Shown here one piece after another: positions 3,600-46,539 of a DNA stretch of 64,000 nucleotides. The stretch is from NCBI GenBank assembly GCA_950295325.1, contig OX485805.1, positions 9,362,501 through 9,426,500 on the forward strand, in the 5' to 3' direction. A program made the translations under genes and the position numbers. Positions within the stretch are counted from its first letter, which is position 1, and the number at the start of each line of letters is the position of its first letter. Under the pieces are notes generated by a model that did no database searches, was not told the DNA's origin, and saw nothing but the letters and a program-made list of their open reading frames with translations. The stretch comes from Polytrichum commune (Eukaryota > Streptophyta > Polytrichopsida > Polytrichales > Polytrichaceae).

Positions 3600-4070
3600 A
3601 AGTTGACGGAATGAAGTGGAATATTAAATCGTGCATGGTTTGTTCATGTATGTGATTTATAAAGGGCATTTGTACCGTCGTCGCAATAATAAAATTATTA
3701 TTTGTATAATATGTTGTACCACTTCTATGATATATGTATATTTTTAAATTTCAACCAACCGCTTATTAAGCATACTTCTATGCATGTTCATCGTTGTCTT
3801 ACAAATTTTGATATTTTAATATTATATATAGAATAGCAAATATATGTATTTTAGTGTATTTTTCCTTACGACAAATTGTTGTGGGAAAAGCTATTTTGCG
3901 AGCGGTGAGCAGTAAGTTTTCTAGAATATTGAAATTTTGTGTGGTGAAACATGCCCTATGACCGCTATGTAGAGCTAATTTTTGAAATATTTATTGACAA
4001 ATTTATTGACAAAAATAATCTATAACCGTGGTTGAGGAACCTATACTGCATTTGCTTGCACCTTTTCTTA
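3600..4070. other. A/T-rich non-coding stretch
   Basis: No ORF with coding character and no recognisable repeat or RNA gene seen. Follows the end of segment A copy 1. Confidence 0.5.
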
Positions 4071-4435
4071 TAAGGTTTGTAGGTTGGGAATGGGTCTCGG
4101 ATGGTTACAGGTTGTCATTTGAGGTGGACTAAGTCCCACTTAGAGAACGCCTCGGATCCGAGGCCTCATGGCTGCGGTATCATTTCAGATTGGGTATAAG
4201 GTTTGTAGATTGGGAATGGGTCTTGGATGGTTACATGTTGTCATTTGAGGTGGACTAAGTCCCACTGGGAGAAGGCCTCGGACCCGAGGCCTCATGGTTG
4301 CGGTATCATTTCAGATTGGGTTTAAGGTTTGTAGGTTGGGAATGGGTCTCGGATGGTTACAGGTTGTCATTTGAGGTGGATTAAGTCCCACTGGGAGAAG
4401 GCCTCGGACCCGAGGCCTCATGGCTTGAGCCCCTA
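4071..4435 (+). repeat. 126-bp tandem repeat, about 3 units
   Basis: Units start at 4071, 4197 and 4323 with TAAGGTTTGTAG(G/A)TTGGG, a constant 126-bp period. Each carries a palindromic CCTCGGAYCCGAGG core. A degenerate fourth unit may continue to about 4540, where the palindrome recurs. No coding potential. Confidence 0.85.
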
Positions 4436-4539
4436 AATTCTGATTGTGTTTAAAGTTGGTGGTTTCTGGGTGGGTATCGGCATTTCAAGTGGAGGGGTTA
4501 CTTTGCAGAAGGCCTCGGATCCGAGGTCTGTTGGCCTTG

Positions 4540-5265
4540 GTGTTTGCTATTTGATTTGAGGTCAAGTTTATGGTTTCAGATTGAATGTAGGCATGTCATG
4601 TTTGGGTTTCATGTTTAGCTACATTCAACCTGACTCCATAAATTTGACATCAAATCATTGGTTTCAGGTTGAGTCTCGGCATGCCAAGTGGTTCAGATTT
4701 CATGTGGGAGTGGCCACTTTGGATATGGCCTCGGATTTCTTGGGGTTTGATGTTTGATTTGAACAAAAAACATAGGATGATGTACATATTTTATGCACAA
4801 GCCTTTTTTGGGTTATTCCATTCTTCTTCCATTCTATCTTTTGATTTTTTTTATTCTTCCATTCTTCTTCCAATCTATCTTCTTATTTTTTGTAATTCTA
4901 AAAAACGTATTGATATTCTATACTTATCATCTTTAATTTTTTGGTTTAGTTTTTCGGTTTAGTTTTCCTTAGTCTTTGTTTCATGTTTTGATCTATATTT
5001 TTACAACTACATTTCTTTATTTTTTTGGGGTTTTGTTTTGAATTTTGTTACATGGATGATGCTATGGTGGATAATGAGGTAGTTTACCTCTATGTCTTAT
5101 TGAATAATAGAGTGCAAGGAGGGTTTAGGGTAAGAGTGTAAGAAGGCATTACAAAATATAATTCATTGTCTAAGGAAAACCATGAAGATTACCGCACTAA
5201 ACGGACAATTAACAATCAAATGCAAAAATATATTATTATGCAAGCAATAAGACACAAAATTTTAC
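4540..5265. other. Non-coding stretch
   Basis: T-rich sequence with no convincing coding frame. It lies downstream (3') of the minus-strand ParB/methyltransferase gene and may hold its 3' UTR. Confidence 0.4.
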
Positions 5266-5557
5266 CTAAGACATATAATCGAAATCACAATTATCAGATA
5301 ATGCTACAGAGACTTTAGAATCTGTACTATCTGCATCTGAAGAGCCTTCATCCTCAGACTCAATAGCTTCTAAATCAACATACTCTATACTGCTTAGCAT
5401 CAACCCCTTAGGTCTAAATGTACGATATGAACCTTCCGCTAATTCATTGGCAACGTCATTTGCGTATGAAGGGAGCCGCCATGACTTTGGAGGACTTGGA
5501 TAAAACGTAGGGTCACAGAAGAAAGGGCGGTGACTAGGATAGGTCATTGGTCCATAT
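5266..5557 (-). CDS. Last exon: Pro-rich then acidic tail, stop at 5266
   Basis: Acceptor ATTTGCAG before 5557 joins in phase (AA|A gives Lys). It encodes a Pro/Tyr-rich stretch and then an acidic Ser/Asp/Glu tail (SEDEGSSDAD), ending FDYMS and a stop. No recognised domain. Confidence 0.7.
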
Positions 5558-5654
5558 CTGCAAATTCCAAAAGTACCATGTTTAGGGCTCGATATTCGAT
5601 ACAATGACGCTCAAAAGTAAAAGCAATGTATGAGAAATTGTTCAACAAACTCAC

Positions 5655-5859
5655 TTATTGAATCGAGACTTCTTCACAATTCTCGGGACCACAAGTACAT
5701 CGCCCTCCGGGTCCTCACTAGTTGCCGTTGCTCCAGAAGTGACGTCAGGAGCAACACTCGAACGAATCAAGGGTTTAAGCAAGGCATGGAAAATGGCCTC
5801 ATCAGCCTCTAATGCCACGATGTGACGCTCGACGTTGCGGGACGCATGGATGGAAGATC
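5655..5859 (-). CDS. Exon 10: end of SAM-binding domain
   Basis: Acceptor TATTGTAG before 5859 restores the Gly of motif I (G|GA). It reads SSIHASRNVERHIVALEADE, matching the helix after motif I and the acidic motif II strand (R.(I/V)(A/G).E.DE) that contacts the SAM ribose. Donor AA|GTGAGT at 5655. Confidence 0.75.
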
Positions 5860-5954
5860 CTACAATAAAAAGAATGACAATAAAATTAGTGTGATTTCTC
5901 TGGAACTAAAAACAAATAGTTAAAGATGTGAGTTGGCAGATTGACTTAACATAC

Positions 5955-6228
5955 CCGTAGCAGCAGTGCAGTCTAAAACAACATCCCCAGGGGAGGTACA
6001 ACTCTGAATTAACATCTGCATTAAAAGAGCGGACTTCTCTCTTGGACCTCGCCACGGCGTGGGTCCATTCATGAGCTGATCCTCACGAGAGACGAGGTTC
6101 TGTAGAATATCATCTCTTTATACATCTACCCCGTGTCGGTCAAGAGCGGGGACAGGCTGAAATGAGAATTTGGAAGCAGGCTTGCCAGGCATGGTCCTCA
6201 CCACTAATGTAATCCCGAAACGCATAGT
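5955..6228 (-). CDS. Exon 9: methyltransferase motif X and motif I, with in-frame TAA
   Basis: Acceptor CATGGCAG before 6228, donor G|GTATGT at 5955, phase 0 in and phase 1 out. Near the end it reads REKSALLMQMLIQSCTSPGD and then VVLDCTAATG. This corresponds to the K/E-x-x-x-L-L…GDxVLDxFxGxG segment (motifs X and I, SAM binding). A TAA at 6120-6118 sits in frame in the middle of this single open exon, with coherent sequence on both sides. Confidence 0.75.
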
Positions 6229-6414
6229 CTGCCATGGTACAGGGTTATTCAATTCAATATGGACTGAGTTATACACCAGCCATTGCAAGCAGCACTTTCA
6301 ACTGAGAACAATGATCCAAAATTTCAAGGAAATCATTATGTAGCATTCGTGTCAAACAATGTTTAAAATTTGCACAAAAAATAAAGAGTAAATTAAATAA
6401 AAGAATTAACTTAC

Positions 6415-6762
6415 AGTGACACTCTGATTAATCGGGGACGTCAGATGGAGGCGGTTCATACCCCACCACTCCTTCCGAACTTGAAAACTGAAACACTCAC
6501 AATATCCAAGAATCATGGCTTTTGTAGTCATTCGAAAAGGGTGAAATAAAATGATGGCCCCGTCATCATGCAAATGGTTATCTGCAAAATCAAAGATTGG
6601 CTGAAGCCACTCGTGAGTTTCTTGATTCCAGGCAGGAATCGACGTTGGTGGGTTGGAGATCCCTGGAACGGGCAAGCCCTCTGGGATATCAGCAAGTATC
6701 AAGTCCAGACAAGGTTGGACACCGGTAGTACCCTTGAAAACTCGAACTTTGCTTTTGGAATG
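6415..6762 (-). CDS. Exon 8: methyltransferase-like domain, motif IV and V region
   Basis: Acceptor TTAGCAG before 6762, donor ACT|GTAAGT at 6415, phase 0 at both ends. It reads SKSKVRVFKG…LDLILADIPEG, where DNA methyltransferases have D-L-I-x-x-DPPY-G. The aromatic residue of DPPY is replaced (D-I-P-E). It then reads DDGAIILFHP and CECFSFQVRKEWWGMNRL, matching the strand after motif IV and the 'F.(V/L)R.E..W.+' block of N4/N6 methylases. The altered catalytic motif makes base methylation doubtful. Confidence 0.75.
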
Positions 6763-7261
6763 CTGCTAAGTAAACAAACACACCCAGAAATTAATACATC
6801 TCTACCAAATGACCCTACACCAAAACTGGCACCTAACAATAATTAAAGCCTGAATCAAATCTAGTACATTTGGAAGCTGAACAAATGATGACAAGAGTGA
6901 AGTTAAATAATATCGATGCTAAGCAATAGAGTGTCAACAGACATAGCCAAACATAAGCATCCATAAGGTATACATTGCCACCCATTCACCGATGGTGAAG
7001 TTGACAATTGGCTAATTCAGATTAAAGCACTACAAGAGTTTATATGACCTATTTGACAAAAATGTGACGAAATTCTGTTAATTTGGGTGTCATATAGGGC
7101 ACCTTGATTCGGTCATACAATTAACAGAGTTCTGTCAATTTCTTTATCATCTGGGACAATTATACACGTAGGATTCCATTTACTCCGGCCCCCTTGCCAT
7201 GTTGGATTCTCTTTACCTCGTCATTTACCCATGGTGATGTGGTTTAATGTCCAAGTTATAC

Positions 7262-7488
7262 TAGTAAAAAAATTCTAAATTAGTAATCCACCCTCGCATT
7301 CGGGGCCTACTCACATAGGTCTAAGGGCGAAGGGCCACCTCACCTAACCTAGGCGAATGGACAAAGCCACCTACCTACCCTAGGCGAAGCCAAGGGTGAG
7401 GGGTCAAGGGGATCGAACCTTGAACCTCTTGGCTATAGTGTGAAGGCCTTAGCCACTAAGCCACCGCTCATTACATGATATAGTCCAA
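7262..7488 (-). mobile_element. tRNA-derived SINE nested in the CACTA-like element
   Basis: On the minus strand a Pol III A-box-like TGGCTTAGTGG is followed at normal spacing by a B-box GGTTCGATCCCC, then a ~150-bp body ending in a T-rich tail near 7265. GTCCAAGT appears on both sides (about 7250 and 7482), as expected of a target duplication. It does not fold as a full tRNA, so I call a SINE rather than a tRNA gene. Confidence 0.7.
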
Positions 7489-7721
7489 GTATGTAAGAGT
7501 TTTGTATGAAGAAGCCATAAGACTTATAAACTTATGTATATATATTTTTTAATTAGTGAAAGTAAAAACAAGCATAGAATTAATGTATTTACTGTTTTTA
7601 ATTAGTACGTATTGTATTTGTATTAAAAAAAATTTACAAAAATACTCCTAAACATTATTACAGTAATTATTGTAATTATTTTAACTACATTAATTACAAT
7701 AATTTCAGTATTTTACTGAAA

Positions 7722-7985
7722 ATAGCAAATTTCAGTATTTACTTAAATTAGCAAATTTCAGTATTTACCTAAATTAGAAAATTTCAGTATTTACCTAAAT
7801 TAGCAAATTTCAATATTTACTTAAATTAGCAAATTTCAATATTTACTTAAATTAGCAAATTTCAGTATTTACTTAAATTGGTAATTTCCCCATTTACTTA
7901 AATTGGTAATTTCAGTAATTATTCAAAAGGGTAATTTCAGTATTTACTTAAATTGGTAATTTCAGTGTTTACATTAATTAATTAA
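7722..7985. repeat. 26-bp A/T-rich tandem repeat
   Basis: About ten degenerate units of AATTTCAGTATTTACTTAAA spaced ~26 bp apart, inside the CACTA-like element. No coding potential. Confidence 0.8.
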
Positions 7986-8290
7986 ATTAGTTATTACATT
8001 AATTATAGTAAATACATTATTTATATTAATTACTTATACTAGTAATTACAATACTTAAAAACCTTTTGTAACACCTTGTGTAACACCTTTTGTTGTTAAT
8101 AAATATGAGACACATGCTCAGGTGAAGGGAATAAGTTAAACGTGAAATATATAAATTTGATGACAGAAAATTGACACAAATTTTGAATAATGTCCGAATT
8201 GACAAAAACTCATAGCTTTGAGCTGATTTTGTCACTTCGGACATTTTAGTGTCACATTTTTGTCAATTATACACCCATTTCCTTGTAGTG

Positions 8291-9201
8291 AAGGGAACTG
8301 AAATGCGAGATTAAACGGACACGGCCAATAACTTAAACGAAAATATGTTGCTTACAGTAGCTGCAAATTGATTTAGGAAAACTACACTGCACTCTCAGTA
8401 ACCCTCACTTAAGCCTCACTGATCCACACTGAACCCTCACTAACCCCCACTGAACCTTCAGTAATCTCTCACTCAACCCTCACTAAGTGACCCTAATTGC
8501 TCCCTCCCTGAATCAGACATATGTTAGTCTCGGTGCCGAGATACTCGAATCCACAAGTCACAATCAAATTCAGGCCCTCTGTATTACCCAGCCTTTGATT
8601 AAAATGCTTAATTCAGGCATTAATTTGGTAAGCAAGCATATCGAATAAACTCACTGATCCTCACTCAGCCTCACTAAATGACTAGAAATGCTCACTCGCT
8701 GAATGAGCCATATGTTAGTCTGGAAGCCAAGATAATCAAATCCACAAGTCAAAATCAAATTCAGGCCCTCTATATTACCCTGCCTCTGATGAAAATGATT
8801 AATTCATGCATTAATTTTGTAAGCAAGCATAGCTAATAAACTCACTGATCCTCACTCAACCTCACTAAGTGACCAGAATTGCTCGCTGGATGAATCAGCC
8901 ATATGTTAGTCTCTGTGACGAGATACTCAAATCCACAAGTCACAATCAAATTCAGGCCTTCAGTATTACAGTACCTATGATCAAAATGCTTAATTCATGC
9001 ATTAATTTGGTAAATAAGTATAGCTAATAAACTCACTGACTCTCACTCAACCTCTCTAAGTGACTAGAATTGCTCCCTGATGAATCAGCCATATGTTAGT
9101 CTCGGGATAAAAGGGAACTGAAATGCGAGATTAAACGGACACGGCCAATAACTTAAACGAAAATATGTTGCTTATAGTTGCTGCAAATTGATTTAGGAAA
9201 A
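8291..9201. repeat. 91-bp direct repeats enclosing a short 192-bp-satellite array
   Basis: The ~91-bp sequence starting AAGGGAACTGAAATGCGAG occurs at 8291-8381 and again at 9111-9201 with few changes. Between them are CACTCAACCCTCACT-rich sequence and about four units (near 8529, 8719, 8911 and 9099) of the ~192-bp satellite that also lies upstream of the gene. All of this is inside the large intron. Confidence 0.8.
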
Positions 9202-9354
9202 TTAGGTATTGTAATCAGAAGAAGTGTATTGTCTATTAAAATTTGAGAATAAATAGCCACTGAATATGGCTATGAATATGTATAAATGTTCTCACTTTGT
9301 ATACTATGAAAATAAAAAACTTAGTGTTGGCATAACAGGTAAAAGCAAAAATAC

Positions 9355-10042
9355 CTTAATCATGAAGCTTTTTAAGTCCTTGTAATAAGACATGTAGTCA
9401 TCTGAGCTACCGCCAAGGACTTCCTTCATGGAGGCATTGAGAATGAGCTCGTCAATCTGGCTTTCGTTCTCCTCTCCCAAATTAAAAACAGGACTCAACT
9501 GTTCGTATGAGGAATCTCGTTTTGTACCTCTGGATAAAGTAGGAGCTTGAGATCCATAATCATAAGTCGGGCTGGGAGAAACAAGACTTTTACCTTGAGG
9601 CTCAGGATGGGGGTTCATTTTCTTTTTCCCCCTCCTGTTAGTCTTCTCCAATGACTTCTGTAGTTTTTCCAACTTTTTATGTGCCGCTTTCTCCTCTGCC
9701 TCCTTTACTCTAAGCGTCTTCTTCCTATCCTCTTCAAGACGTCGCGAGAGGGCCTTTGACCTCTCATGCTCGTCTTCTATGCCCTGTAAGTCAACCATCT
9801 CAACACCAGATTCTCCAACTGCCTCCCTTGACTTCCTAAGTTCAATTTGAAATGAAGGCATGAAACTAGGAGCACAGTCGAGGTACCATCCACCTCCGGT
9901 AAGATGTGTGGTTGACCAAGTCCGCTGTTGATTTGCTGAGAACATGCATGTTGAGTTCGACCTATCAAGCCATGCAGAGAGAAATATGGGGAGATCTTCT
10001 TTTGTTATTGCTCCTTTTGCAAGGAGCTCGTACTTGAAATAT
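9355..10042 (-). CDS. Exon 7: coiled-coil, highly charged linker
   Basis: Acceptor CCCGCAG before 10042, donor AAG|GTATTT at 9355, 688 bp. The first ~90 residues look globular (YFKYELLAKGAITKEDLP). They are followed by a ~70-residue Lys/Glu/Arg coiled coil, a basic cluster NRRGKKKM (possible nuclear signal) and a Ser/acidic tail. It probably links the ParB-like and methyltransferase-like halves. Confidence 0.75.
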
Positions 10043-10162
10043 CTGCGGGTAGGAAACATGTCATGGTTATATTCCTTGCAATCAAAATAACTGTGATGAG
10101 AAAAACCAAATAACTATGCCAAATATAATGAATGTAGTAGTTAAAGGAGAAAGAGTAGTCAC

Positions 10163-10388
10163 CAAAAGAGTACTCGACGAACAATCAAGTCAGTCCCGTT
10201 AAAGCTCAAAAATTCGAGAGTTTTGTTAAAAGCCTCCTGCCCACGGAAGAAGGTAGGGAACGCATTGTCCCATAATTTCATTCTACAGTCCTCGATGTAT
10301 GCAGCCAAACTCAAGGGCTCGCTGGGTATATCAAATCTGATAGCCAGTCTGTCTTGTCTTCAAATATAATGGAAGCCTGATCGGATAT
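10163..10388 (-). CDS. Exon 6 with in-frame TGA
   Basis: Acceptor CTACAG before 10388 continues exon 5 in phase (G|AT gives Asp). The frame reads DIRSGFHYI, then TGA, then RQDRLAIRFDIPSEPLSL through NGTDLIVRRVL with no other internal stop. The clean frame on both sides suggests a CGA (Arg) to TGA change. The exon ends TTTTG|GTGACT in phase 2. Joined to the next exon, TG|A makes another stop codon at the junction. Confidence 0.65.
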
Positions 10389-10591
10389 CTGTAGAAATAG
10401 AGTGAGTAAGGCAGAGAACAAGAAAGAGAACAAAACCAACATATGTATTGAAATCAGAGTGAGGAAGAACAAAAAAATGACCAAGAAGAAGACCATGAGG
10501 AAGACCGAGACAAAGACCGAATTAATGTAGGTACATAAAGTAGTAAAGAAGGATTCACAAAGAAGTAAAGGGTACATAGGGGATTATGTAC

Positions 10592-10814
10592 CCACACCGG
10601 CCCAAAAACATGCCTTGGCTAAGAATGCATGTAATTTCTCCTCGTTGGTGGGCTTGGTTGGCAGTTTGCGGGCCTCACGTGTTGATCCAGAGGAATTGAA
10701 ATATTCCAACCATTTGATTTTAGAAGCGGGCGATGCTTTGGTAGTAGCGATCAACTGCAATTTCTCCAAGTTGAGCTCCGGTGTAATTGAGTTAAGAGTA
10801 TAGTGACGCGCAAT
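10592..10814 (-). CDS. Exon 5 of ParB/methyltransferase gene
   Basis: Acceptor TTCACAG before 10814, phase 0 in. The donor is G|GTACAT at 10592, phase 1 out. It encodes IARHYTLNSITPELNLEKLQ and then a Lys-rich segment. Without splicing the frame stops eight bases further on. Confidence 0.7.
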
Positions 10815-10902
10815 CTGTGAACCATATAGCAATATATTAGAATCATGGAATTCATTGAAGTACTTGAAGAATGAAAAATGGGCCTTAAAGTAGGGGACAT
10901 AC

Positions 10903-11094
10903 CTCCCGAAGCCATCCATCTGTCAACTCTGGGTTTGCCACACAAACTAATTTTGACATTTTCTTATGAAGTGCCTCAGCTCTCTTTGAAGCAGCGACCT
11001 TCATAGCCGTTGTTTTTTCAGCAGCACAGACCTCTCCATCCGTTTGCTCAACAAGTTGACGAACACCCTCATCTGCAGCAAGGCCCAGTTCGTG
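10903..11094 (-). CDS. Exon 4 of ParB/methyltransferase gene
   Basis: Acceptor TTTGCAG before 11094 and donor GAG|GTATGT at 10903, phase 0 at both ends (64 codons). It encodes an Ala/Glu/Lys-rich helical segment starting HELGLAADEG, with no recognised motif. Confidence 0.75.
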
Positions 11095-11149
11095 CTGCAA
11101 AGCGATCACATGAGTTAGTTTGGCATGAAGATGATGACTTAGATCAATA

Positions 11150-11330
11150 GCAATATAATGTTAAACTACACCACGAGCAGGAAAGTCGCATAGAGGTGTG
11201 AATTGATAATTCATGATAATATGCAAGAGTATTTTGGAATACAAGGCAGAAACCGATAATATTGTCGAGGTTGATAACTTGTGTCTCAGTACTGAGAGGT
11301 GAACGATCTCTACAACTCCAGCCACTCAGT
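11150..11330 (-). CDS. Probable exon 3, boundaries unresolved
   Basis: An open frame containing TETQVINLDNIIGF lies between exon 2 and the next clear exon. It needs acceptor and donor sites that keep phase 0 on both sides. One option uses an acceptor after AGTACTGAG and a donor CTT|GTATTC, but neither is strong. I am sure only that coding-like sequence is present. Confidence 0.35.
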
Positions 11331-11407
11331 CTGCTATATGTGAATCAAATTTCAAAATAAAAAACAAATGAAGAAGTCATTAAGAGTGAGTATTAAAGAG
11401 ATAATAC

Positions 11408-11603
11408 CTGAAACATAAAGTTCGTAAAAACATGTAGATTTAATGAATACCACGTCTTCTTTGCATTTTGAGATTTCTTGCATCTTTTAATGTCCGCTGG
11501 AGTCAATATGTCTTGGTACTGTTCGAGCGGCATAAGTCCATACTTCTGCACCCTAAATAGAGTGTGAACTATGTTGGTCTTGACGTGAGAGTCTTCAGTA
11601 TGT
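11408..11603 (-). CDS. Exon 2 of ParB/methyltransferase gene
   Basis: Acceptor ATTGTAG before 11603 and donor CAG|GTATTA at 11408. It joins exon 1 in phase (AA|A gives Lys) and ends in phase 0. It encodes a helical stretch beginning HTEDSHVKTN, probably the helical region that follows the ParB fold. Confidence 0.75.
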
Positions 11604-11701
11604 CTACAATTGACAATCATAGAGCAAAGATAAACACATCAGAATATATGTAGATTTAAAGTACTTAACATAGACAAAAACATTACATAATGAAAACTTA
11701 C

Positions 11702-12327
11702 TTGTTGATGTTATGCATAACTTGCATAACAACACCAATTTTTCCCTTCGTGTCAAGGAGGATGCTATCCACCAAACAATGCCAGGCCTCTTCTGTTTTG
11801 TGAAGTCTTTGAATATGATTCAACCAAGCCTGCTGCCTATGGTTGCCGTCACAAACAAAGAACATCAAATTTGTAAAATTGGCTAACTCCGGAACGGACA
11901 GAAGAAAGGAGTTGAATTCTTCATTTTTGGCACTCCAAATGGGACCCCACGAAGCCTTATCTGCTTCAGTAACCTCATGTGTATTGCCTTCTTCATCTGT
12001 TATAGTGACATAAAATACTGAGGCACCCTCTCTATACCCATGGACAAACTCCTGCTCCAATTTAGCAAGATCACTTGAGAGAGTTGGCCTGACCATAGGC
12101 ATGGCCAACATTCTGCATAACGGAATATTGAACCTTGAGGAATTCAGGGATTGAAATCTCAGTCTAGAAATCGTGGCAACGGAATTAAGTTTCTGTTGGG
12201 TCCTGATATCATCTTCATCCCCTTCATATGGATCTCTATCTCCAAGCCTTTCTTCATCTTCATCCTGAGCCTCTTCAGAATTGTCTAGAGAACCCTGAGA
12301 AGCAGCAAGAACATCCTCCTTTGCCAT
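11702..12327 (-). CDS. Exon 1: ParB-like N-terminal domain
   Basis: Starts at the ATG 12327-12325 (M-A-K-E-D) and ends at a GTAAGT donor, phase 2. The first ~40 residues are acidic (EDEDEERLGDRD). Residues ~85-200 fit a ParB/sulfiredoxin-like fold: a VRPTLSSDLAKLEQEF helix, a YVTI strand, then FVCDGNHRQQAWLNH, the diagnostic DGNHRxxA motif that in ParB-type proteins binds nucleotide. Whether it binds or hydrolyses CTP/ATP is unknown. The exon is fully open. Confidence 0.8.
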
Positions 12328-12364
12328 GTTCTCTACCTGCAGGAGATAACTCTGATCAAATAAT

Positions 12365-14990
12365 CAATAGGTTAGTCTCGGTGCCGAGATAGTCAAATCC
12401 ACAAGTCACAATCAAATTCAGGCTCTCTATATTACACTACCTGTGCCCTAAATGCTTAATACAGGCATTGATTTGGTAAGTAAGTATAGTTAATAAACTC
12501 ACTGATCCTCACTCAACCTCACTAAGTAACCAAAATTGCTCCCTCGCTCAAACAACCATATGTTAGTCTCGGTGCCGAGATACTCGAATCCACAAGTCAC
12601 AATCAAATTCAGGCCCTCTATTTTACACTACCTGTGATCAAAATAGGTTAATACAAGCATTGATTTGGTAAGTAAGCATAGCTAATACACTCACTGATCC
12701 TCACGCAACATCACTAAGTGACCAGAATTGCTCTCCGGATAAATCAGCCATATGTTAGTCTCGGTGCCGAGATAGTCAAATCCATCAGTCACAATCAAAT
12801 TCAGGCCCTCTGTATTACAATACCTGGGATCAACATTCTTAATTCAGGCATTGATTTGGTAAGTAAGGATACCTAATAAACTCACACAAAACTCACTCAA
12901 CCTCCCTAAGTCACCAAAATTGCTCCCTAGATGAATCAGCCATATGTTAGTCTCGGTGCCGAGATAGTCAAATCCATAAGTCACAAATCAAAATCAGGCC
13001 CTCTGGATTACCCTGCCTCCGATCAAAACGCTTAATTCATACATTAATTAGGTAAGCAAGCATATCTAATAAACTCACATAACCCTCACTTAACCCACAT
13101 TCTACCCTCACTAATCCCTCACCGCACTCTCACTAACCCTCACTCAACCCTCACTGGTCCACACTGAACCCTCACTAACCCAAACTGAACCCTCATTAAT
13201 CCCTCATTGAACCCTCACTAAGTGGCCAGAATTGCTCCTTCCCTGAATCAACGATATGTTAGTCTCGGTGCCGAGATAGTCAAATCCACAAGTCACAAAT
13301 CAAATTCAGGCCCTCTATTTTACACTACCTGGGATCAACATTCTTAATTCAGGCATTGATTTTGTTAGTTAGCATACCTACTAAACTCACACAAAACTCA
13401 CTCAACCTCCCTAAGTCACCAAAATTGCTCCCTAGATGTATCAGCCATATGTTAGTCTCGGTGCCGAGATAGTCAAATCCACAAGTCACAATCATATTCA
13501 GGCCCTCTATTTTACACTACCTGTGATCAAAATGGTTAATACAAGCATTAAATAGGTAAGCAAGCATATCTAATGAACTCACATAACCCTCACTTAACCC
13601 ACATTCTACCCTCACTAATCCCTCACCGCACTCTCACTAACCCTCACTCAACCCTCACTGGTCCACACTGAACCCTCACTAACCCAAACTGAACCCTCAC
13701 TAATCCCTCACTGAACCCTCACTAAGTGGCCAGAATTGCTCCTTCCCTGAATCAACGATATGTTAATCTCGGTGCCGAGATAGTCTAATTCACAAGTCAC
13801 AAATCAAATTGAGGCCCTCTGTATTACACTACCTGTGATCAAGATGCTTAATACATGCATTGATTTGGTAAGTAAGCATACCTAATAAACTCAATGATCA
13901 TAAGTCAACCTCACTAAATGACCAGAATTGCTCCCTCGCTGAAATAACCATATGTTAGTCTCGGTGCCGAGATAGTGAAATCCTCAAGTCCAAATCAAAT
14001 TCTGGCCCGCTGTATTTCCCTGCCTCAGATTAAACTGCTTAGTTCACGCATTAATTTGGTGACCAATCCTATCTAAGAGACTCACATAACCCTCACTTTA
14101 CCCCTAACTCAACCATAACTCAACCCTCACTTAAACCTCACTTAACCCACAATGAACCCTCACTAATCCCTCACTGCACTCTCACTAACCCTCACTCAAC
14201 CCTCACTGGTCCACACTGAACTCTCACTAACCCAAACTGAACCCTCACTAATCCCTCAATGAACCCTCATTGATCCACAGTACTGAACCCTTACTGATCC
14301 ACACTGAACCCTCACTAACCCCCCCTGAACATTCAGTAATCTCTCACTCAACTTCACTAAGTGACCAGAATTGATCCCTGGATGAATAAGCCATATGTTA
14401 GTCTCGGTGCCGAGATAGTCAAATCCACAAGTTACAATCAAAATCAAGCCGTTTGTATTACACTACCTGTGATCAAAATGCTTAATTCAGGCATTGATTT
14501 GTTAAGTAAGCATAGCTAATAAACTCACACAACCCTCACTAAACCTCGCTAAGTGACCAGAATTGCTCCCTGCATGAATCAGCCATATGTTAGTCTCGGT
14601 GCCGAGATAGTGAAATCCTCAAGTCAAAATCAAATTTTGCCCCCCTGTATTACCCTGCCTCGTATTAATTTGCTTATTTCAGGATTAATTTGGTGAGCAA
14701 GCATATCTAATAAACTCACAGATCCCTCACTTTACCCTAACTCAACCATAACTCAACCCTCACTTAACCCACAATGTACCCTCACTAATCCCTCACGGCA
14801 CTCTCACTAACCCTCACTCAACACTCACTTGTCCACACTGAACCCTCACTACCCCAACCTAAACCCTCACTAATCCCTCACTGATCCACACTGAACCTTC
14901 AGTAATCTCTCACTCAACACTCACTAAGTGAGCCTAATTGCTCCCTCCCTGAATCAGCCATAGGTTTGTGACCGAGATAGTGAATCCAGA
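12365..14990. repeat. 192-bp satellite array upstream of the ParB/methyltransferase gene
   Basis: The palindromic core CTCGGTGCCGAG recurs near 12377, 12568, 12760, 12952, 13264, 13457, 13768, 13960, 14402 and 14594. Spacings are ~192 bp, with longer units of ~312 and ~442 bp where CCCTCACTAA-type short repeats have expanded. A shorter array of the same family lies in the gene's intron. The array begins just upstream of the gene's ATG (12327). No gene seen inside. Confidence 0.88.
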
Positions 14991-18325: not shown

Positions 18326-19213
18326 GCGAAGCGGAAGGTAGTTACAAGACTTGGAGGCGACTAGGAGACTTGGAGGCAACTAGGAAAAATTGGAGACACA
18401 AACTTGAGAGAAGGGAAGGAGCACCCGAAACTCGGTAAGTATTCTCTCTTTGGGTTACATTTGAATTCATTGTATTTCAACTATTCCTTGGAATGAATTG
18501 CATTGTCAATTACGCAAATTCATTTTTGAGGAAGGAGCGCGGCGAAGGTACGTCCTCAACCTTTTTGGGGATTTGCTAAGAACTTAAAAGGAACCTATAA
18601 CCGAGTAGCTCATTAAAACATTAGAGGGTAAATTCACCTTAGGACATTGAACTTTGACACTCACCTCGGGGTGAGTCTCAAAGTTTTGGGAGTTGTCATT
18701 TCATGCTCTAGATTAAATTAATATTTCACAAAGTTTATGGTGTTGTTACATTGAGTCACGATTGAGGGGAGTGCTAACTCACAGGGGGATGCGATTGCTC
18801 AAGGTATGTTTATTTCTTCAAAGTGAACTCATTAACTAATTAAGGAATGCCTTTTGTACTCGTGATTGTTGTTATCCGTTGTAGAGGGTAATTCCCGAAT
18901 TGTGGATGGTGTGAGAAGTTGAAGGGTGAAGCCTCGACTTTTAACATAATCTACTCGGAAGGTCACCCCCTCACAATCGGTATTGTGGTGAGTGTTAATT
19001 TGCGGGAAGATGCGGAGGTGATGCTCCGACTTAACCAAAAAATTAACATGAACATGCCTATCCCCTATTGGGATTCTTTCACCTAAGTGGGCTTGCAGGT
19101 TCTTTTCCTCACCTCCTAAAAAAATTATAACCACACCAAGACAAGTGAAAATATTAAGAGGGGAATTGCTAGGATTATGTGTGGTCAAGTGAGGGTCGAT
19201 CGATTCTTATGGA
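18326..19213 (+). other. Retrotransposon leader, no gene
   Basis: Untranslated leader between primer site and gag. A 118-codon antisense ORF here has no domain and is treated as chance. Confidence 0.6.
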
Positions 19214-22200
19214 ATGCAAGGTAGGACTCGCTCACAAAAACCAAGTTTGATAGTAGGACTAGAGAAATCTACTCGAAAGAGGCGGTCCTCTAAAATCAGT
19301 GATAGATTAGAACAAGATAATGTTAGAATAGAGAGTTGTTTGAACGTCGAACCTAGGACTAGGTCAATTCTAGACACCTTAGAACTTGGAGCTCAACTTG
19401 AAGAGGAGATCACTCCCTCCAAATTGAGTGGTGAAACTTCTTCGGAAAATTACACACTTAGAGAAGAATTCCCGGTAGAAGTTGATAGGGGATTGTTGAA
19501 TAGTTCACCGGTCACCATGGCCGAGGAACGGGGGATGGATCCACCACCCATACCCCCAATTCCGCCCATACCTCCTATACCTCCAATAGACCCATTGGTT
19601 AGGCCAAGAGGCCTACCAATTGTGGTTCCACAAAATTTAGCGGCGATGGATATGCCATCTCATCTCCCTAAATTTTATGGGACCAAGGATGAGGACCCCT
19701 CTCGGCACATGGAACGGTATATCGAACGGTTGGCTAGCTTCCTCATAACCGACCCGGGTTATTGGTTAGTGTGGTTTCCTACCACTCTAGAGGGGGAAGC
19801 CTATGAATGGTATCGGGATCATGCCGAGGGACATTTTAGGGGATGGGAACAATTACAAAGGGAGTTTTTTTAACGAATTTAGGCCGGAAGTGGGTCAAAG
19901 TACCGCATTAAGGGCATTGTCGTCATTGAAGCAAGGAAGGGAGGAAGAAATTTCGGCTTACATTAGGAGGTTTGATTTAGTGTGCACTAGATTTGTGGGT
20001 ACCATGCTCAACGACGACACGCTAAAGCAATTTTTCATTCAAGGGTTTTTTAAGTCCGGAACTATTAGGGGTGTTCTAGAAAGGAATCCCTTGACCTTGG
20101 CGGATGCCAAGCGTGCGGCTAGAGATATTGAAAACTTGGATAAAGATCACGAAAGGCTATGGAGAAGGGAGGATGAATTGATCCCACAATTCATCCCCAT
20201 ACGCCCTAGGGTGGTAGCGGTAGAACCCGCTAAGTATGAGAACCAAATTCCATATGCCATTGTGGACACCGGTCCCCGACCTTTAGCGGTTAGGGAACCG
20301 GCACCTCTTTTGGCACTACCGGCCCCTAGAACGGATCCACACTTGGAGGAGGTTGAGAGAAGACTAGGTGCTAGCCAACTAGGATTCCAAGAGGCTATGA
20401 TAAAACAAATGCAAAGCCTCACGGATCAAATGTCATTAATGATCCGGAGTCAACAACCGGGGCCTCCACCCCCGGTTGAGTCGGGTAGGCATTCTTCCGG
20501 ATTATGGTGTGTCCAATGTGGCCAACCGGGCCACACGCGTCAATTTTGTAGAAGTGGACAAAACCGTGACCAAAGAGGAAACGGTAACCCACCTCAACAA
20601 AATCAACGAGGTCAAGCGCCACCTCACTATGGAAATGGAAGCAATAGAGGACCACAACCTAGAGGGCAAGGTGGCCAAAATTTAGAGAAGAAGGAATTTC
20701 ATCCCTTTTGTGGAAGGTGGCACGCTCAAGGACAATGTTGGTCCGAAGGTCAAGAGTTTAATTGTAGCAATTGTGGAGGAAGTCATCCCTCGGATACGTG
20801 TCGCCAACCGGACAAAATAATTAATGTCCCTTACCCGGTGGCTAATCCACAACAACAAGCAAGGGATAATATGCGAGGTGCTAGGCCACAAGGAGTACCG
20901 GCCAATGAACTTAGGCCACCTAACTTATACTATGACCATAGTAATGCTAGGCAAACTTTTCATCCACCGGCGGGCTTGCAAACTACAACCGGTTACATTC
21001 CAATACAAAATAGACAAGGAGTTCCACCTAATGGTAGTAACGGGAGACAAGCGCCTCCAACGGATCCGGGACCATCTAACTCCCAAGATGTTAGGTTCAT
21101 GGATGGAGTGTTGGAGGCCACATGTGATGACATGCTTCCTCTCCCAACGAGAATTGGAGAGGAGCAAAGTCAATGGCCTCCTCACACCAATGCTATTACA
21201 TATGAGTTAGTGAAGGGTAAGGGTGTGGTTGAAGAAGCACATGCACTAGCGGTAACTACTAGGGCTAGGAGAGGGGATGCCCCGTTGGAGGTAGGAATAG
21301 GAGAGCAAGGAAATTACTCTTCGGATGAAGAGATTAATCTCTCCGAGTTGGATAGGGTAGCTAGAAGAGCTACTAAGGATGTGGAGAGGGAAAATATAAT
21401 TTTACAAGATAGGGAGAGGACTAATGCGGTACATGACTTGGATAATAGCGATGTGGGTGAATGGGAAGGACCGGGGGTTCCCGTAGACGAATTCGACGTA
21501 GTGGGTAATTCTAAGGTGGAAAGATCTACCGGGTACGACTTGTGGGCGGACCTTAGTACACTCAAGGCGGATATTACTTTCGGCCAACTATTGGAAATTT
21601 CACCCACGGCAAGGAAAACATTAAAGGAGGGAATGCCGGTACACAAGAGGATGAGGAAGGTGAAAGCTAAAATAGCCGCTAGGATCCAATCACAAGGTGG
21701 AAGAGACGTGAAAGCTATAGAAATAGAAGTTGTTATAGTAGATAAGGTGGTTCCTAATGTGCTAGTCGACGGAGGGAGTAGTCTAAATATACTACCGGAG
21801 GATACTATGAAAAAATTGGGACTTGGACTCACGGGGCCTTCACCTTTGGTCATAAATATGGCAAATCAAAGTTCGACTACGCCTTTGGGGATGATCAAGG
21901 ATTGTAGAATGACTACGGGAGGTGAGGAGTACTTGGTCACCTTCCATGTCATTAAAATGCACTCCAACAAGGACACCTTCCCCATTTTGCTAGGTAGGCC
22001 TTGGTTGCGGATGGCGAATGCTATGGTCAATTGGGGTGGACCTAAACCATCCATCACTTATGGTCCGGAGGGTAATAGGGTCATAGTGTCCATTGGTTCA
22101 TTAGAAGGATGGATGAAGAAGGAGATGTATTTGCCATTGGAGAAGGAAATTGATGACTTAAACGAGAATGAGATTGGCAAGGCATTGGTGGGAGTCGTCC

Positions 22201-25200
22201 ATCCCGAAGGTCAAAGGGTTGTTATAGATTCGGGCTCGGGAAGTCTAGGTCCTAATTTTTACAATTATGGGGATAATGGGGATTATGCCCAATGGCTAAG
22301 GGAGTACCCCGAGTCCGAGGTTGATGTAATGGTTACATTTCACCAAGTAGGCTTAGGGAGTGAATTTCCTAGTGTTAGTTTAGGAGAGGGCTCATTGTTG
22401 GAGCCATGTGAGGTGCTCACCGAGGAAAAGTGGGTTAGCGGTGGGTTAACACCTTGGGTAGATGACGTGGAAGAGGGTGAGGTTAGTTTAATTCATGTAG
22501 ATGGGACTCAAGAGGAGGATGTGATTATTGAGTCATCGAAATTGGAGGAGCCTTTACATTTCAAGACCACGTCTACGGGGATAGTTGTAGGTCAAGATGT
22601 GAAAGATTACCCCAATGTGCCTTCCGATTGGTATCGGAACAAAGAGGAGCAAGCACATGTGTCGGAAGCGGATTGGCGGTACGTGGATGTGAAATTAAAG
22701 AATGGAAAAACCCGACAAATGAAGATGGGCTCCAAATTGGGGGAGAAAGAGGTTAGGGAGTATAGCAATTTGGTGGATGAGTTTAGTGATACTTTTGCAT
22801 GGTCCTACGATGAGCTTAAGGGAATTCCTAGGGAAATGGTAGAGCACCGGATTCCTTTAATTCCGGGGGCGAGGCCAAAGGAGAGGAGGATGAATCCTCA
22901 ATTGCAATTGTTGGTGAAAGCGGAATTGGAAAGGTTATTGAAGGCCGGGTTTATCAAGCCGGTGGAAATCACGGATTGGGTTTCTCCTATGGTCTTAGTA
23001 AAGAAAAAAAATGGGAAATTAAGGGTTTGTGTCGACTATAGGAAATTGAATTCGTGCACACAAAAGGATCACTTCCCCTTACCTTTTATCACCTTGTTGC
23101 TTGAGGAGGTTGGAGGTCATTCGCGATATACCTTTATGGATGGGTATGCGGGTTATAATCAAATTTCCATAGCCCTCCAAGATATCCATAAAACGGCTTT
23201 TACTACACCTTGGGGTACTTTTGTGTGGGTAGTGATGCCATTTGGGTTATGTAATGCCCCGGCTACTTTCCAACGATTAGTAATGTATATCTTCACCGAC
23301 TTGTTGTTCAAATCCATGACCGTCTTTGTGGACGATTTTAGCACACAAAGTAATGTGGATGATCACCTACATTGTGTTAGGGAGGCATTGGTTAGGTGTA
23401 GGAAGATGAGGTTAGCATTGAACCCGGATAAGACATTTTTGGGAGTGAATAAGGGAGTGTTGTTGGGTTATGTTGTTAGTGAGAAAGGTAGAGAACCCGA
23501 TCCGGATAAGATTGCGGCCATAAGCGACTTGGCAACTCCAACCAATTCCAAGGGGATCTCTAAGTTGTTAGGACATGTGGGATGGTACCGGGAACTTATT
23601 CCTAATTTTTCAAAGATAGCGGTGCCCATTACCCATTTGCTCAAAAAGGATGTCAAATTCGAGTGGACGGATGCTTGTCAAAAAGCCTTTGAGGAATTGC
23701 GGGATAGGTTGAGCACCTATCCGGTGTTGATACCACCCAATTGGGGTAAACCTTTTCACGTCTATTGTGATGCTAGTAATGTGGCAATAGGGAGTGCACT
23801 TTGTCAAGCAACGGGAGAAAAAGAGAAGGATCAACCTATAGCTTATGCGAGTAAGCAATTGACCCCCGCCGAAAGAAACTACTCTACAACGGAGAGGGAG
23901 TGCCTAGCCATGGTGTTTTCCGTTAAAAAGTTTAGGCATTACCTCATGTGCAACCCGGTTGTATTTTTTGTTGACCACATGGCTATCAAGTATCTAATTA
24001 ACAAGGCTGAGTTAAGTGGTAGGTTAGCTAGGTGGGTTTTGTTATTAGAAGAATTCGACTACACGGTGGAATATAAACCGGGTCGTATGCATTTACAAGC
24101 GGACCACTTGTCTAGGTTGTCGGAGGAGATAGGAAAAAATCCGGTAAATGATATGTTAGTAGATGATAGCCTCTTTGTGGTCACTTCTACACCGGAGTGG
24201 TATGCGGGCATAGTGGAATTTCTAACAACCCACAAGTTGCCCAAAGAGTGGACAAAAGAAGAGAGAAGGAAGGTGAGGGTAAATAGTAGGCAATTTGTTG
24301 TAGTGGGCCATAGGTTGTTTAGAAGGGGGTCCGATGGTATTTTACGACGATGCGTGTCAAAAACGGAGGTTGAAGCGATTTTAATCGCTTGCCACGATAG
24401 CGCTTGCGGCGGTCACTTCTCGGGTCAACTCACCGGGCAAAAAATACTTAGAGCGGGCTACTTTTGGCCTACACTATTTAAGGACGCCCATGACTATGTA
24501 AGGAAATGCGACGCTTGCCAACGGTATGCCCGAAACGACCTTAGAATGGAGATGCCTTTACATGTATCATTACCCTTAATTCCTTTCGAAAAATGGGGCA
24601 TCGACTATGTGGGTGAGGTCCATCCCCAATCTTCAAAAGGAATGAAATATATTGTGGTGGCAACCGAGTACCTCACCAAGTGGGCGGAAGCCAAAGCGGT
24701 GAAGACCGACACGGCGGAACACGCGGCAACATTTATGTACGAAAACATAATTTCGCGGTTCGGGGTGCCGAAGATCCTAGTAAGCGATAGGGGTACTCAC
24801 TTTTTGAATGACTTGATTCGAGAGATGACAGAGAAATTTAAAATTGATCACCGGAAGACTACTCCCTACCACCCACAAACCAATGGACAAACGGAAAGGG
24901 TTAACGGAATTTTGGTGAGTATACTACGCAAGACGGTTATAGACTCGAAGCGGGATTGGGATACGAAACTAACGGCGGCACTTTGGGCATACCGTACAAC
25001 CTATAAGGTAACTACGCGTGCTACACCATTTTCCTTAGTCTATGGTCTTGAAGCGACACTACCAATCGAATATGAAGTCGAGTCACTTAGGGTGGCCGTG
25101 AGTACGAGACTTACCGAAAGTCAATCCTTACGAAATCGACTAACCGATTTGGAAGCACTTGACGAAGGGAGGAGAATGGCGGCTCAACATATTGAGGCAA

Positions 25201-25445
25201 TCCAAAGAAGGAGAAAGATTACTTTCGACAAACGACATAAGAGAAGGGCCCTAACACCGGGAATGATGGTCATGATTCAAGACGCACGAAAGCTTGAATT
25301 TCCGGCGAAATTCAATGCGGTATGGTTAGGACCTTACCTTGTCTATGAGGTCTTTCCTAATAATTCAATTCAATTGGAAACGTTGAATGGTGAGCTCTTT
25401 CCTACCCGTACATCGGGAAGTAGATGTAAGGAGTACCGAGCTTGA
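19214..25445 (+). CDS. Gypsy gag-pol polyprotein, with a frame change in gag
   Basis: Gag starts at ATG 19214: a Pro/Ile repeat, then the retrotransposon gag domain (HLPKFYGTKDEDPSRHMERY). At a run of seven T (19865-19871) the gag frame meets TAA (19871-19873), and coding goes on in the +1 frame to 25445. Downstream are a CCHC zinc knuckle (20506-20550) and a second Cys-rich motif (20763-20802), an aspartic protease (VLVDGGSSLNIL, ~21758), reverse transcriptase with FVDDF (~23326), RNase H (VYCDAS, ~23762), an integrase HHCC finger (~24390-24520) and a DDE core (GIDYVGEV, VSDRGTHF, NGQTERVNG). The shift lies inside the gag domain, so a one-base indel in the T run is more likely than programmed frameshifting. 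Confidence 0.92.
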
Positions 25446-28746: not shown

Positions 28747-28971
28747 GCCGTGGGGTTTTAGTTCCCCTCACTTTCCTCTCCTCCCACCACAAAGGGACCC
28801 GAGACCTTGTTGCCGTCCCAAGGACAGCGGCACCGCGCGGGTCTCAGGGGGTTTGGGAGGGCAGGGCAAATTGTGGGGGAACCCTCGCAATTTTTTTTCC
28901 AGATTCACGCACTCATTTCTACATTCACTCACTCCTTTTTACATTCACTCACTCACGCGGTTTTTTTCACG

Positions 28972-30888
28972 ATGGAGGGGGAGGACATTGCTCCTTACGA
29001 AGACGAGGATACGAGGCTGCACCGTGCTTGGCTCCAAAGCACTCCACTTGCGCATACTGGAGAGGGTACGGGAAGCGAGGCCGGAAGTGGAAGCACTGCA
29101 GCACATCCCCCACGTCCAGATCCTTTTCGGTTTGACGAAGAGTTCTTTGCAGTTGGCCATTCAGGAGGCAACCAAACACGTGGAAGCCGTGGAACACGTG
29201 GGAGTCGGGGAAACAGTGGACATAGAGGGAGAACAGGAAGGGGACCAAGCTCAGGCAGTTCCACCGATATAAATGCAGCCACTCATGGAGAGTCCGTGCC
29301 ACCACGATCTCCGACACGGCGGACATCAAGACCGGAGAGCCCTGCACGTGATGTACCTCAGGGTTCAGAGCATGGTGAAAGACGGGGACAAAAACGCCCA
29401 GCAATTTCGGAAGGGACGGAGGAGGGGTCCGGGGTTTCAGGTTCGCAATCGAGGAAAAGGAAAAATAGAGGCAAACGCGACCCGCGGATCGATGAGGCTC
29501 GAAACCATTGTAGGGTCGTGCTGTTGGAGTGGTTTAGAAATAACAGCATGGTTTATTTGGAAAAAAAATACCTCAATGATGGTACAAAGGGGTTGGATTT
29601 GGTGAGGAACGATTTGATTCTTATTCTCACGGAAGCCACGGCTGGAGCAGAGTTTGAAGAAGCTAGGGGCATGAGCGATTGGGGCACCTGGATTGAACAA
29701 CAAGCCGTGGAAGCAATCTACAATCCAACAATGGCATATGATGTTGTGCATCCTAGCGAGGGAAGTAGTAGTGGCAGGAAGTCCGAGCTGTACATGAAGC
29801 TAGAGAATTGGAAAAGAGGCGTAATAGCAGCAAAAGGAACATCCGCCCGCAACCTTCCCATTTTTATTGACAGGCAGATGGCAGACAACATTGCCACTCA
29901 GGGCCGGCAGGGTGTCATATGGTTGCCTAGGAATGCGGAGATCAAAGCCTTGGATAAGGAAATCTTCCAAGGGACCTTCGGAGTGGTGCGGAGAGTCGCA
30001 ATTCATGGAGCATCATTCATCCCTAGCTGGATAGAGTGGGCTGGGAAGACCATGAAGGCCACGAATAGTTTGGAGAATCGAAAGGACCGTTCAGTTGAAG
30101 CATTGGCGTGTCCAGTAGATCATCCTGGGGTAATCAAGCTACAATACCTCAATATGAAAACATACGAATCCTATTCGATGTGGTGGAATGGAGGCTCCTT
30201 GAAAAACATGAGGATCTATGACTTCAGCGTTCCGGAAACCCACGAGCGCACAATCCTTCACATGCCTGGGGCAGACTTTGAAGCACGGAAACGGTTGGTT
30301 GTATATCGAAGGCATCGAGCTTATTTGGCATGGGCTCTAATGTGCATTGTGGATGTAGTGCACAAGCATGACGTGTTGCACAATGACCTTAATCCCAACA
30401 ATGTCATGCTGCATTTCCCACAAGACCGTGAGAACACGGTTTACATTGGTGTGTGTGATTGGGGCATGGCATCCTGGGGAGATGAAGACGCACCCTCCAA
30501 CTATGGAAAAGATTCAGTGGATGAGATGAACAAGCACAAAGCAAAATACAACTGTGCTGGTCCAGAATTATTCCATGTACGAGGGCAGCGTGGAACATCC
30601 ACCTCTCCGGTGAGGATGGCTCGGAAACATAGGCACACGTTTCTATCGGAGTCCTTCTCAGTGGGTGCTTTGGCAAAGAAGATTTATGCCAGGGATGCGA
30701 CTTCCCCCTTGTTTCAGCTAAACAGTGATCCACATGGCTTGAATATGCGGTTTGAGTTAGCATTGGATTCATTGACGAAGACCAATCCAGCGGAAAGGTC
30801 AACCATCACACACGTAGTGAACATGTTGAAGTCCCCTCCATACAACATGGTTAACCCGACAATGTGCTTCCGTGACACTGCAAAATAG
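28972..30888 (+). CDS. Protein kinase-like protein (638 aa), transposon cargo
   Basis: ATG 28972 is the first ATG after the TATA box. The frame is also open upstream to ~28807, but without an ATG. Residues 1-180 are low complexity (Gly/Ser/Arg) with a basic cluster SRKRKNRGKR, a possible nuclear signal. The kinase domain covers about 325-620. It shows a Gly-rich loop GTFGVVRR (~333), a lysine in WAGKTMKA, a catalytic loop HNDLNPNNVMLH (HRD become HND, with Asp and Asn kept) and CDWGMAS (DFG become DWG, metal Asp kept). The catalytic residues look intact, so activity is plausible. Single exon. I cannot place it in a named kinase family. Confidence 0.85.
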   Translation: MEGEDIAPYEDEDTRLHRAWLQSTPLAHTGEGTGSEAGSGSTAAHPPRPDPFRFDEEFFAVGHSGGNQTRGSRGTRGSRGNSGHRGRTGRGPSSGSSTDINAATHGESVPPRSPTRRTSRPESPARDVPQGSEHGERRGQKRPAISEGTEEGSGVSGSQSRKRKNRGKRDPRIDEARNHCRVVLLEWFRNNSMVYLEKKYLNDGTKGLDLVRNDLILILTEATAGAEFEEARGMSDWGTWIEQQAVEAIYNPTMAYDVVHPSEGSSSGRKSELYMKLENWKRGVIAAKGTSARNLPIFIDRQMADNIATQGRQGVIWLPRNAEIKALDKEIFQGTFGVVRRVAIHGASFIPSWIEWAGKTMKATNSLENRKDRSVEALACPVDHPGVIKLQYLNMKTYESYSMWWNGGSLKNMRIYDFSVPETHERTILHMPGADFEARKRLVVYRRHRAYLAWALMCIVDVVHKHDVLHNDLNPNNVMLHFPQDRENTVYIGVCDWGMASWGDEDAPSNYGKDSVDEMNKHKAKYNCAGPELFHVRGQRGTSTSPVRMARKHRHTFLSESFSVGALAKKIYARDATSPLFQLNSDPHGLNMRFELALDSLTKTNPAERSTITHVVNMLKSPPYNMVNPTMCFRDTAK

Positions 30889-42003: not shown

Positions 42004-42232
42004 GACTTCAACAAAACCTGCAAATACAAACAAGTTAGAGCAAGTAACTTTGATCGCATACTAGGTCTTGTTCAAGAGTGCCACAAGGGCAACCCTAATT
42101 CACAGTCACTAGATTGGACAAAGTATCCTCTGCATTCGGGTCTCACGCATTCAATCCTCACTCCTCAAAGGAGAATCAAAAGACTTGACACACACTATGT
42201 CAGTGGAGGCAAAAATGGCACCTTGAACCCTC

Positions 42233-46500: not shown

Positions 46501-46501
46501 T

Positions 46502-46527
46502 ATTTATTTATTTATTTATTTATTCGG
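46502..46527 (+). repeat. (TTTA)n microsatellite
   Basis: About six TTTA units where the gypsy reading frame breaks off. It marks the junction with the next, unrelated sequence. Confidence 0.8.
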
Positions 46528-46539
46528 GTTGGGCATGCT

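Follow-up and report, generated by a model that had tools for sequence, protein, structure and literature searches.

A multi-exon gene on the minus strand of a 64,000-nucleotide stretch of Polytrichum commune DNA (assembly GCA_950295325.1, contig OX485805.1, positions 9,362,501 to 9,426,500; hereafter the window) raises the question of what a ParB-like motif joined to an N4/N6 DNA methyltransferase-like domain is doing in such a genome. The original prediction, made from the letters of the window, put its emphasis on a plant gene and on a domain pair familiar from phages and bacteria but not from plants, and both points have to be revised. The gene is the accessory gene of a transposon and, judged from its sequence, what the locus holds is a degenerate copy of a large DNA transposon of Mutator-like type whose host is probably a land plant. 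The domain pair is not new on transposons, because the combination of a ParB-like and an N4/N6 methyltransferase domain has already been published for transposons of algae (PMC12477816; this and the other articles are cited here from extracts).

What is new here is that arrays of the palindrome TCTCGG-NN-CCGAGA accompany the gene in 30 of the 30 top-scoring copies of the element. The algal proteins have been described as perhaps capable of binding and modifying their own DNA, and no target is named in the extracts of that article (PMC12477816). A candidate target for such self-targeting is now concrete and present in thousands of copies, with one subfamily carrying a different palindrome, and self-targeting becomes testable. 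The same protein class is shown here in a probable land plant; the element that carries it has ends of Mutator type, and its unusual catalytic motif is kept under selection. In the extracts of the literature surveyed, no palindromic target, land-plant member or D-x-P-E motif is mentioned for ParB-methyltransferase transposon proteins.

Copies, ends and genes of the element

Within the same assembly (408 Mb, seven large contigs holding 406.1 of 407.8 Mb) exon 1 of the gene gave at least 150 scored matches (1219 candidates), as did exon 7, with at least 150 (1092 candidates), each set being spread over all seven large contigs; both counts include the window's own copy and a few copies that were split in two. 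It is because of these matches across the genome that we do not regard the gene as one of the host. Spread by a transposon, which the original prediction had raised as a side remark, is borne out by many dispersed copies, inverted ends and a target duplication, and the long residence in a eukaryote that it had proposed is supported as well. A young group of copies, located on different chromosomes, is ~98% identical across the 1.5 kb of gene that follow exon 1, and the upstream repeats of this group are mostly 85-96% alike. At C7:23003424 and C7:23011397, which apparently belong to one copy, exon 7 is 97% identical to the window whereas exon 1 is only 85% identical, a mismatch that suggests subfamily exchange or uneven constraint.

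The fuller copies are DNA transposons of 16 kb. Their inverted ends are short, their target duplication measures 10 bp, and they carry a divergent transposase-like gene. Both ends were read in two copies only, designated A and C. Copy A (C1:45749686 to ~45765790) has inverted ends that match at 28 of 31 bases and is bounded on both sides by an exact 10-bp duplication (GCGAGAGGCC), and in copy C the first seven of the ten flanking bases agree (7/10). For Mutator-like elements (MULEs) target duplications of 8-11 bp have been described (PMC6446971). The right end of copy A, with its inverted repeat and duplication, lies at about position 7328 of locus L037, and a further copy, B, departs at position 6061 of the same locus. 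No right end was found in the copy B sequence examined, nor was one found for the window copy with up to 3 mismatches allowed; a retrotransposon to the right of the element, at 19193-25445, may have replaced or displaced the latter.

In copies A, B and C, and at L038/L039, a second gene lies head to head with the accessory gene. By eye its product carries zinc-finger-like, DDE-like and SWIM-like CxC...CxH motifs; the transposase-like protein found no match in Pfam, and its frame, read without modelled introns, is interrupted in copies A, B and C. That the locus might instead be an insertion from a giant virus or some other virus, a link which the original prediction had entertained, strikes us as scarcely credible. 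ParB-methyltransferase fusions do occur in viral contigs, but inverted ends, a target duplication and a transposase-like gene are those of a DNA transposon, and nothing virus-like was seen here, no viral gene being noticed among the open reading frames (ORFs) read, in which no dedicated viral search was made.

Like a transposon of Ectocarpus, the present element is giant and carries its accessory gene on the strand opposite to the transposase, and the two accessory proteins share a ParB-like part, an N4/N6 methyltransferase part and comparable lengths (1104 amino acids there versus ~1,110 here; PMC12477816). Unlike the Ectocarpus element, ours has a probable land-plant host, a 10-bp target duplication and short, Mutator-like inverted ends. 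The likeness to proteins of Ectocarpus and of red and green algae was judged by size, domain order and gene layout, not by sequence. A further difference from the algal system lies in the palindrome arrays described below, which go unmentioned in the extracts of PMC12477816.

Palindrome arrays and their variation

All 15 CTCGG-NN-CCGAG sites of the window (0.01 expected) are confined to the interval from 4151 to 14606, which lies on the right-hand side of the element's left end: four near that end, one in the large intron of the accessory gene and ten upstream of exon 1. A scan of the 1500 bp upstream of exon 1 took in every palindrome whose arms have 6 bases and whose spacer has 0-8, in the 30 copies with the highest scores, the window included. 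TCTCGG with a spacer of 2 ranked first, with 30/30 copies, and the next unrelated palindrome was present in 16/30. The 144 sites in 30 copies (the window plus L007-L035; L006 is the window itself and was left out) belong to 14 flank types with a likeness below 70%. That all 144 sites have the same core follows from its use as the search pattern; going outwards from it, the unselected base pairs are complementary in 144, 100, 117 and 88 of 144 sites, and then in at most 53.

A diverged subfamily, represented by L073 and L074 (exon 1 ~42% identical), has upstream arrays of a second palindrome, GTTTGGGTCG-NN-CGACCCAAAC, at a spacing of 32 bp. Its 10-base arms are exact in 8/9 and 6/8 units, and within the arrays the exact units show six and four different central dinucleotides. 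This second palindrome occurred in none of the 38 loci L006-L043 (some of which are pieces of one copy), nor in the window, and the main palindrome in none of four diverged loci over 3 kb upstream. Beside the second palindrome there is also a 20-bp palindrome without a spacer, CCTGTGCGTTAACGCACAGG, part of which forms 64-bp arrays (L073 361-1703, L074 363-1897). It might be supposed that the element captured the main palindrome from its host as a regulatory or insulator site, or that tandem duplication gave rise to it as a neutral by-product, given that any motif inside tandem arrays gets amplified. We consider this improbable: the palindrome is kept across the 14 dissimilar flank types, the arms in the diverged subfamily stay exact in an array whose units differ in the two central bases, and the window holds its sites within the 4151-14606 interval alone.

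Genome-wide, there are 4,639 TCTCGG-NN-CCGAGA sites versus 11 for a control, the same pattern read backwards. Among the 4,639, 57 distinct sites were listed with their positions, and 35 of these have a listed exon 1 or exon 7 no further than ~6 kb away. One array that was found by the palindrome alone, at C1:50.7-53.2 kb, lies between an exon 1 (C1:49663-50175, minus strand, 41% identical) and a transposase-like gene that is transcribed divergently (C1:57633-60829; 66% identity in the DDE-like part), which is the layout expected of the element. Arrays that separate the two genes or lie close to the left end would also suit binding sites of the element's own transposase, with the methyltransferase-like protein acting elsewhere, and many plant transposons have subterminal sites for their transposase. 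We nevertheless hold this explanation to be doubtful: in the window copy, palindromes are present inside the large intron of the accessory gene as well, and this copy has kept both gene and arrays in 64 kb where tblastn detects no transposase sequence.

The accessory protein and a possible self-recognition system

The C-terminal half of the protein matches the Pfam family N6_N4_Mtase (PF01555) with an E value of 9.4e-9 (36 bits versus a cut-off of 26.7), in agreement with the N4/N6 type originally predicted, and the diverged copy L005 gives a full-length match to the same family (E 1.1e-7). The methyltransferase motifs follow one another in the order foreseen, IV-like, X-like and I-like, in exons 7-9 of our model (numbered 8-10 in the prediction), but the catalytic DPPY is absent from them, because motif IV reads LILADIPEGLP. 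The canonical form of catalytic motif IV is [DNS]PP[YFW], and D[ILQ]PE stands in its place in 16/16 aligned copies, which were chosen by hand to span the identity range. In both the window and copy B the sequence of motif I is LDCTAATG. L004 has DIPD for motif IV and DLFVGTG for motif I, and the diverged L005 comes near to canonical with DIPY and DLSVGTG. Published variants of motif IV include SPPY, DPPY and NPPY (PMC8885841). For exon 7 the ratio of nonsynonymous to synonymous substitution rates (dN/dS) has a median of 0.129 and a range of 0.077-0.40 (63 usable of 105 pairs from 15 sequences), with synonymous sites close to saturation between subfamilies; judging by these values exon 7 is under purifying selection, the domain having been kept and its catalytic motif changed.

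An active, self-targeted DNA methyltransferase that writes N6-methyladenine (6mA) or N4-methylcytosine (4mC) on its own element would agree with the family match over motifs X and I, with the near-canonical motifs of L005, and with the suggestion made for the Ectocarpus protein (PMC12477816). We regard it as unlikely, given that D-x-P-E occupies motif IV in all 16 aligned copies, that motif I contains CTAATG in the window and copy B, and that the activity of the rotifer enzyme N4CMT was abolished on replacing the Ser and Tyr of SPPY (PMC8885841). Because motif IV is D-x-P-E, we favour a protein whose catalysis has probably been altered or lost and whose structural role is retained over an ordinary adenine or cytosine methylase. 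In being of N4 type, of bacterial origin and resident in eukaryotes, N4CMT of bdelloid rotifers and the 4mC methyltransferase of Marchantia are similar cases; they differ in that the rotifer protein has SPPY and is fused to a chromodomain and the Marchantia enzyme has no extra domains, and neither is described as a transposon gene in the extracts of PMC8885841.

The domain order is also that of phage and bacterial ParB_N-methyltransferase fusions. One such protein, a canonical fusion of ParB_N and N6_N4_Mtase with 443 amino acids (L002; contig C12, 61,220 bases, 820-2151), is found in the same assembly, on what looks like bacterial or phage DNA assembled with that of the plant. Motifs X and I align with the phage/bacterial fusion (hhalign probability 96.3 over 66 columns, with a query led by L005), whereas the N-terminal domains do not align by profile and the motif there is a canonical DPPY. 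A tblastn search of phage genomes with the methyltransferase region of copy B returned 299 records, 18 of which cover at least 80% of the query, with identity below 60% in all.

At the other end of the protein, the VCDGNHRQQAW reported from exon 1 is present. The DGNHR-type signature is a hallmark of ParB/Srx-like domains, and in 27 aligned sequences its G, N and H are invariant and its D and R are found in at least 90%. Of the weak PHROG matches shown by 59 relatives, the commonest is to phrog_1033, 'ParB-like partition protein' (19/59, best E 0.082). Pfam returned no ParB match in the window protein or in the 59 relatives, whose best match, Phage_tube_C (E 0.0035, 2 members), is probably due to chance. 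A sequence search of the PDB with the exon 1 alignment gave two weak matches, neither of them ParB (E 0.75 and 8.3). Exon 1 alone had 260 matches to predicted proteins at E <= 10, and a profile search with it retrieved 575 proteins at E <= 1, with no informative name among the best 120 of 575.

How might such a protein and such arrays work together? In the anti-silencing system of the VANDAL21 elements of Arabidopsis, VANC21 targets tandem repeats in introns and upstream regions, with motifs that differ between related elements (PMC5735166). As in that system, we find an accessory gene of a Mutator-like element and tandem-repeat motif arrays in non-coding DNA; unlike it, the present element has a long palindrome as its site and encodes a protein of which one half is methyltransferase-like, and the two systems are likened by layout and not by sequence. 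The chances seem to us about even that the element encodes a self-recognition system resembling VANC of VANDAL elements. The exon 1 domain would bind the palindromes as a dimer, placing the protein along the copies of its own family; array density would give specificity, and subfamilies would separate when the array and the binding domain change. The methyltransferase-like domain would then mark or read element DNA, keeping the element out of host silencing in the manner of VANC. A parS-like self-identity system, which is possible but in our opinion has less than an even chance, would have the ParB-like part and the repurposed D-x-P-E domain bind family-specific palindromic arrays, spread along the element, and block or rewrite host silencing, with subfamilies switching palindromes.

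Several points weigh against self-recognition by the accessory protein. The transposase could bind the palindromes instead, and binding by the accessory protein is itself inferred. Using hhalign, exon 1 found no match to one, and then to twelve, ParB or ParB-methyltransferase proteins, phage proteins included, and the AlphaFold model of exon 1 has a mean predicted local distance difference test (pLDDT) score of 44, which leaves a ParB fold unsupported. Because Pfam gives no match and hhalign and AlphaFold no support, the N-terminal part is best described as ParB-like by motif only, so that of the ParB/Srx domain originally proposed the signature is confirmed and the fold is not. L073 and L074 are close relatives, and the second palindrome amounts to one case, not two. 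At C1:49.7 kb there is a copy that has kept the main palindrome although its exon 1 shares only 41% identity with that of the window, and its nearest tested relative, L057 (55% identical), has no exact main palindrome upstream; palindrome site and binding domain do not change in lock-step. At L075 a distance of 3 kb contains no palindrome array, and at L072 there are four palindromes with a spacer of two bases, all of them imperfect. Finally, 22 of the 57 listed genome sites, at C1:20-56 kb, lie 15-52 kb from any listed copy; the cluster holding 17 of those 22 is explained by a diverged copy of the element, and five at C1:20-21 kb remain.

Gene model and neighbouring sequences

Exon modelling with GT-AG introns confirmed a spliced gene reading from 12327 to 5266 (Table 1). 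Ten introns had been claimed for it and the model has nine; an exon near 11330 is not required, because exon 2 joins the exon at 11094-10903 in frame. The joined model corresponds to a protein of ~1,110 residues, and fuller copies encode one of ~1,100. The window copy is damaged at two places, by an in-frame stop codon in exon 8 and a frame break in exon 5, and at both copy B (L042) reads open. When the joined exons were compared with the protein database, 7996 candidates were scored and none reached E <= 0.001; our guess is that such genes are perhaps stored there exon by exon.

Table 1. Features of the element copy in the window (positions are those of the window).
Feature	Position	Strand	Remark
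Left terminal inverted repeat (GGGAAAAGCTATTTTGCGAGCGGTGAGC...)	3883..3913	+	Copy B homology begins here; inverted partner at right end of copy A
126-bp tandem repeat near left end; CTCGG-NN-CCGAG at 4151, 4277 and 4403, a further one just outside at 4514	4069..4425	.	
Accessory gene, ParB-like motif and N4/N6 methyltransferase-like domain	5266..12327	-	Ten-exon, nine-intron model; copy broken
Exon 10, acidic C-terminus	5266..5557	-	
Exon 9, motif II-like region	5655..5859	-	
Exon 8, motif X-like PWRGPREKSALL and motif I-like VVLDCTAATG; in-frame TAA at 6118-6120	5955..6294	-	
Exon 7, methyltransferase motif IV, D-I-P-E replacing DPPY	6415..6762	-	
191-bp tandem array in large intron; one exact (8528-8541) and one degenerate (8910-8923) palindrome	8468..9105	.	
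Exon 6, charged linker	9355..10042	-	
Exon 5, reading-frame change inside near 10350	10163..10388	-	Same region open in copy B (L042 8032-8319)
Exon 4, 3' border approximate	10590..10814	-	
Exon 3	10903..11094	-	
Exon 2	11408..11603	-	
Exon 1, 208 codons and 2 bases, DGNHR motif at DNA 11837-11853	11702..12327	-	
Upstream arrays, 192-bp units and others; ten exact TCTCGG-TG-CCGAGA at 12376-14607	12367..14607	.	

Elsewhere in the window, the ORFs read include two Gypsy-like long terminal repeat (LTR) retrotransposon coding regions, at 19193-25445 and 42924-46589. By eye, a minus-strand open frame of 1084 amino acids at 38806-42060 has the look of a hAT-type transposase, one of 708 amino acids at 28762-30888, beside long G+C-rich simple repeats, resembles a protein kinase, and open frames at 59723-63762 resemble a TIR-domain immune-receptor-like protein.

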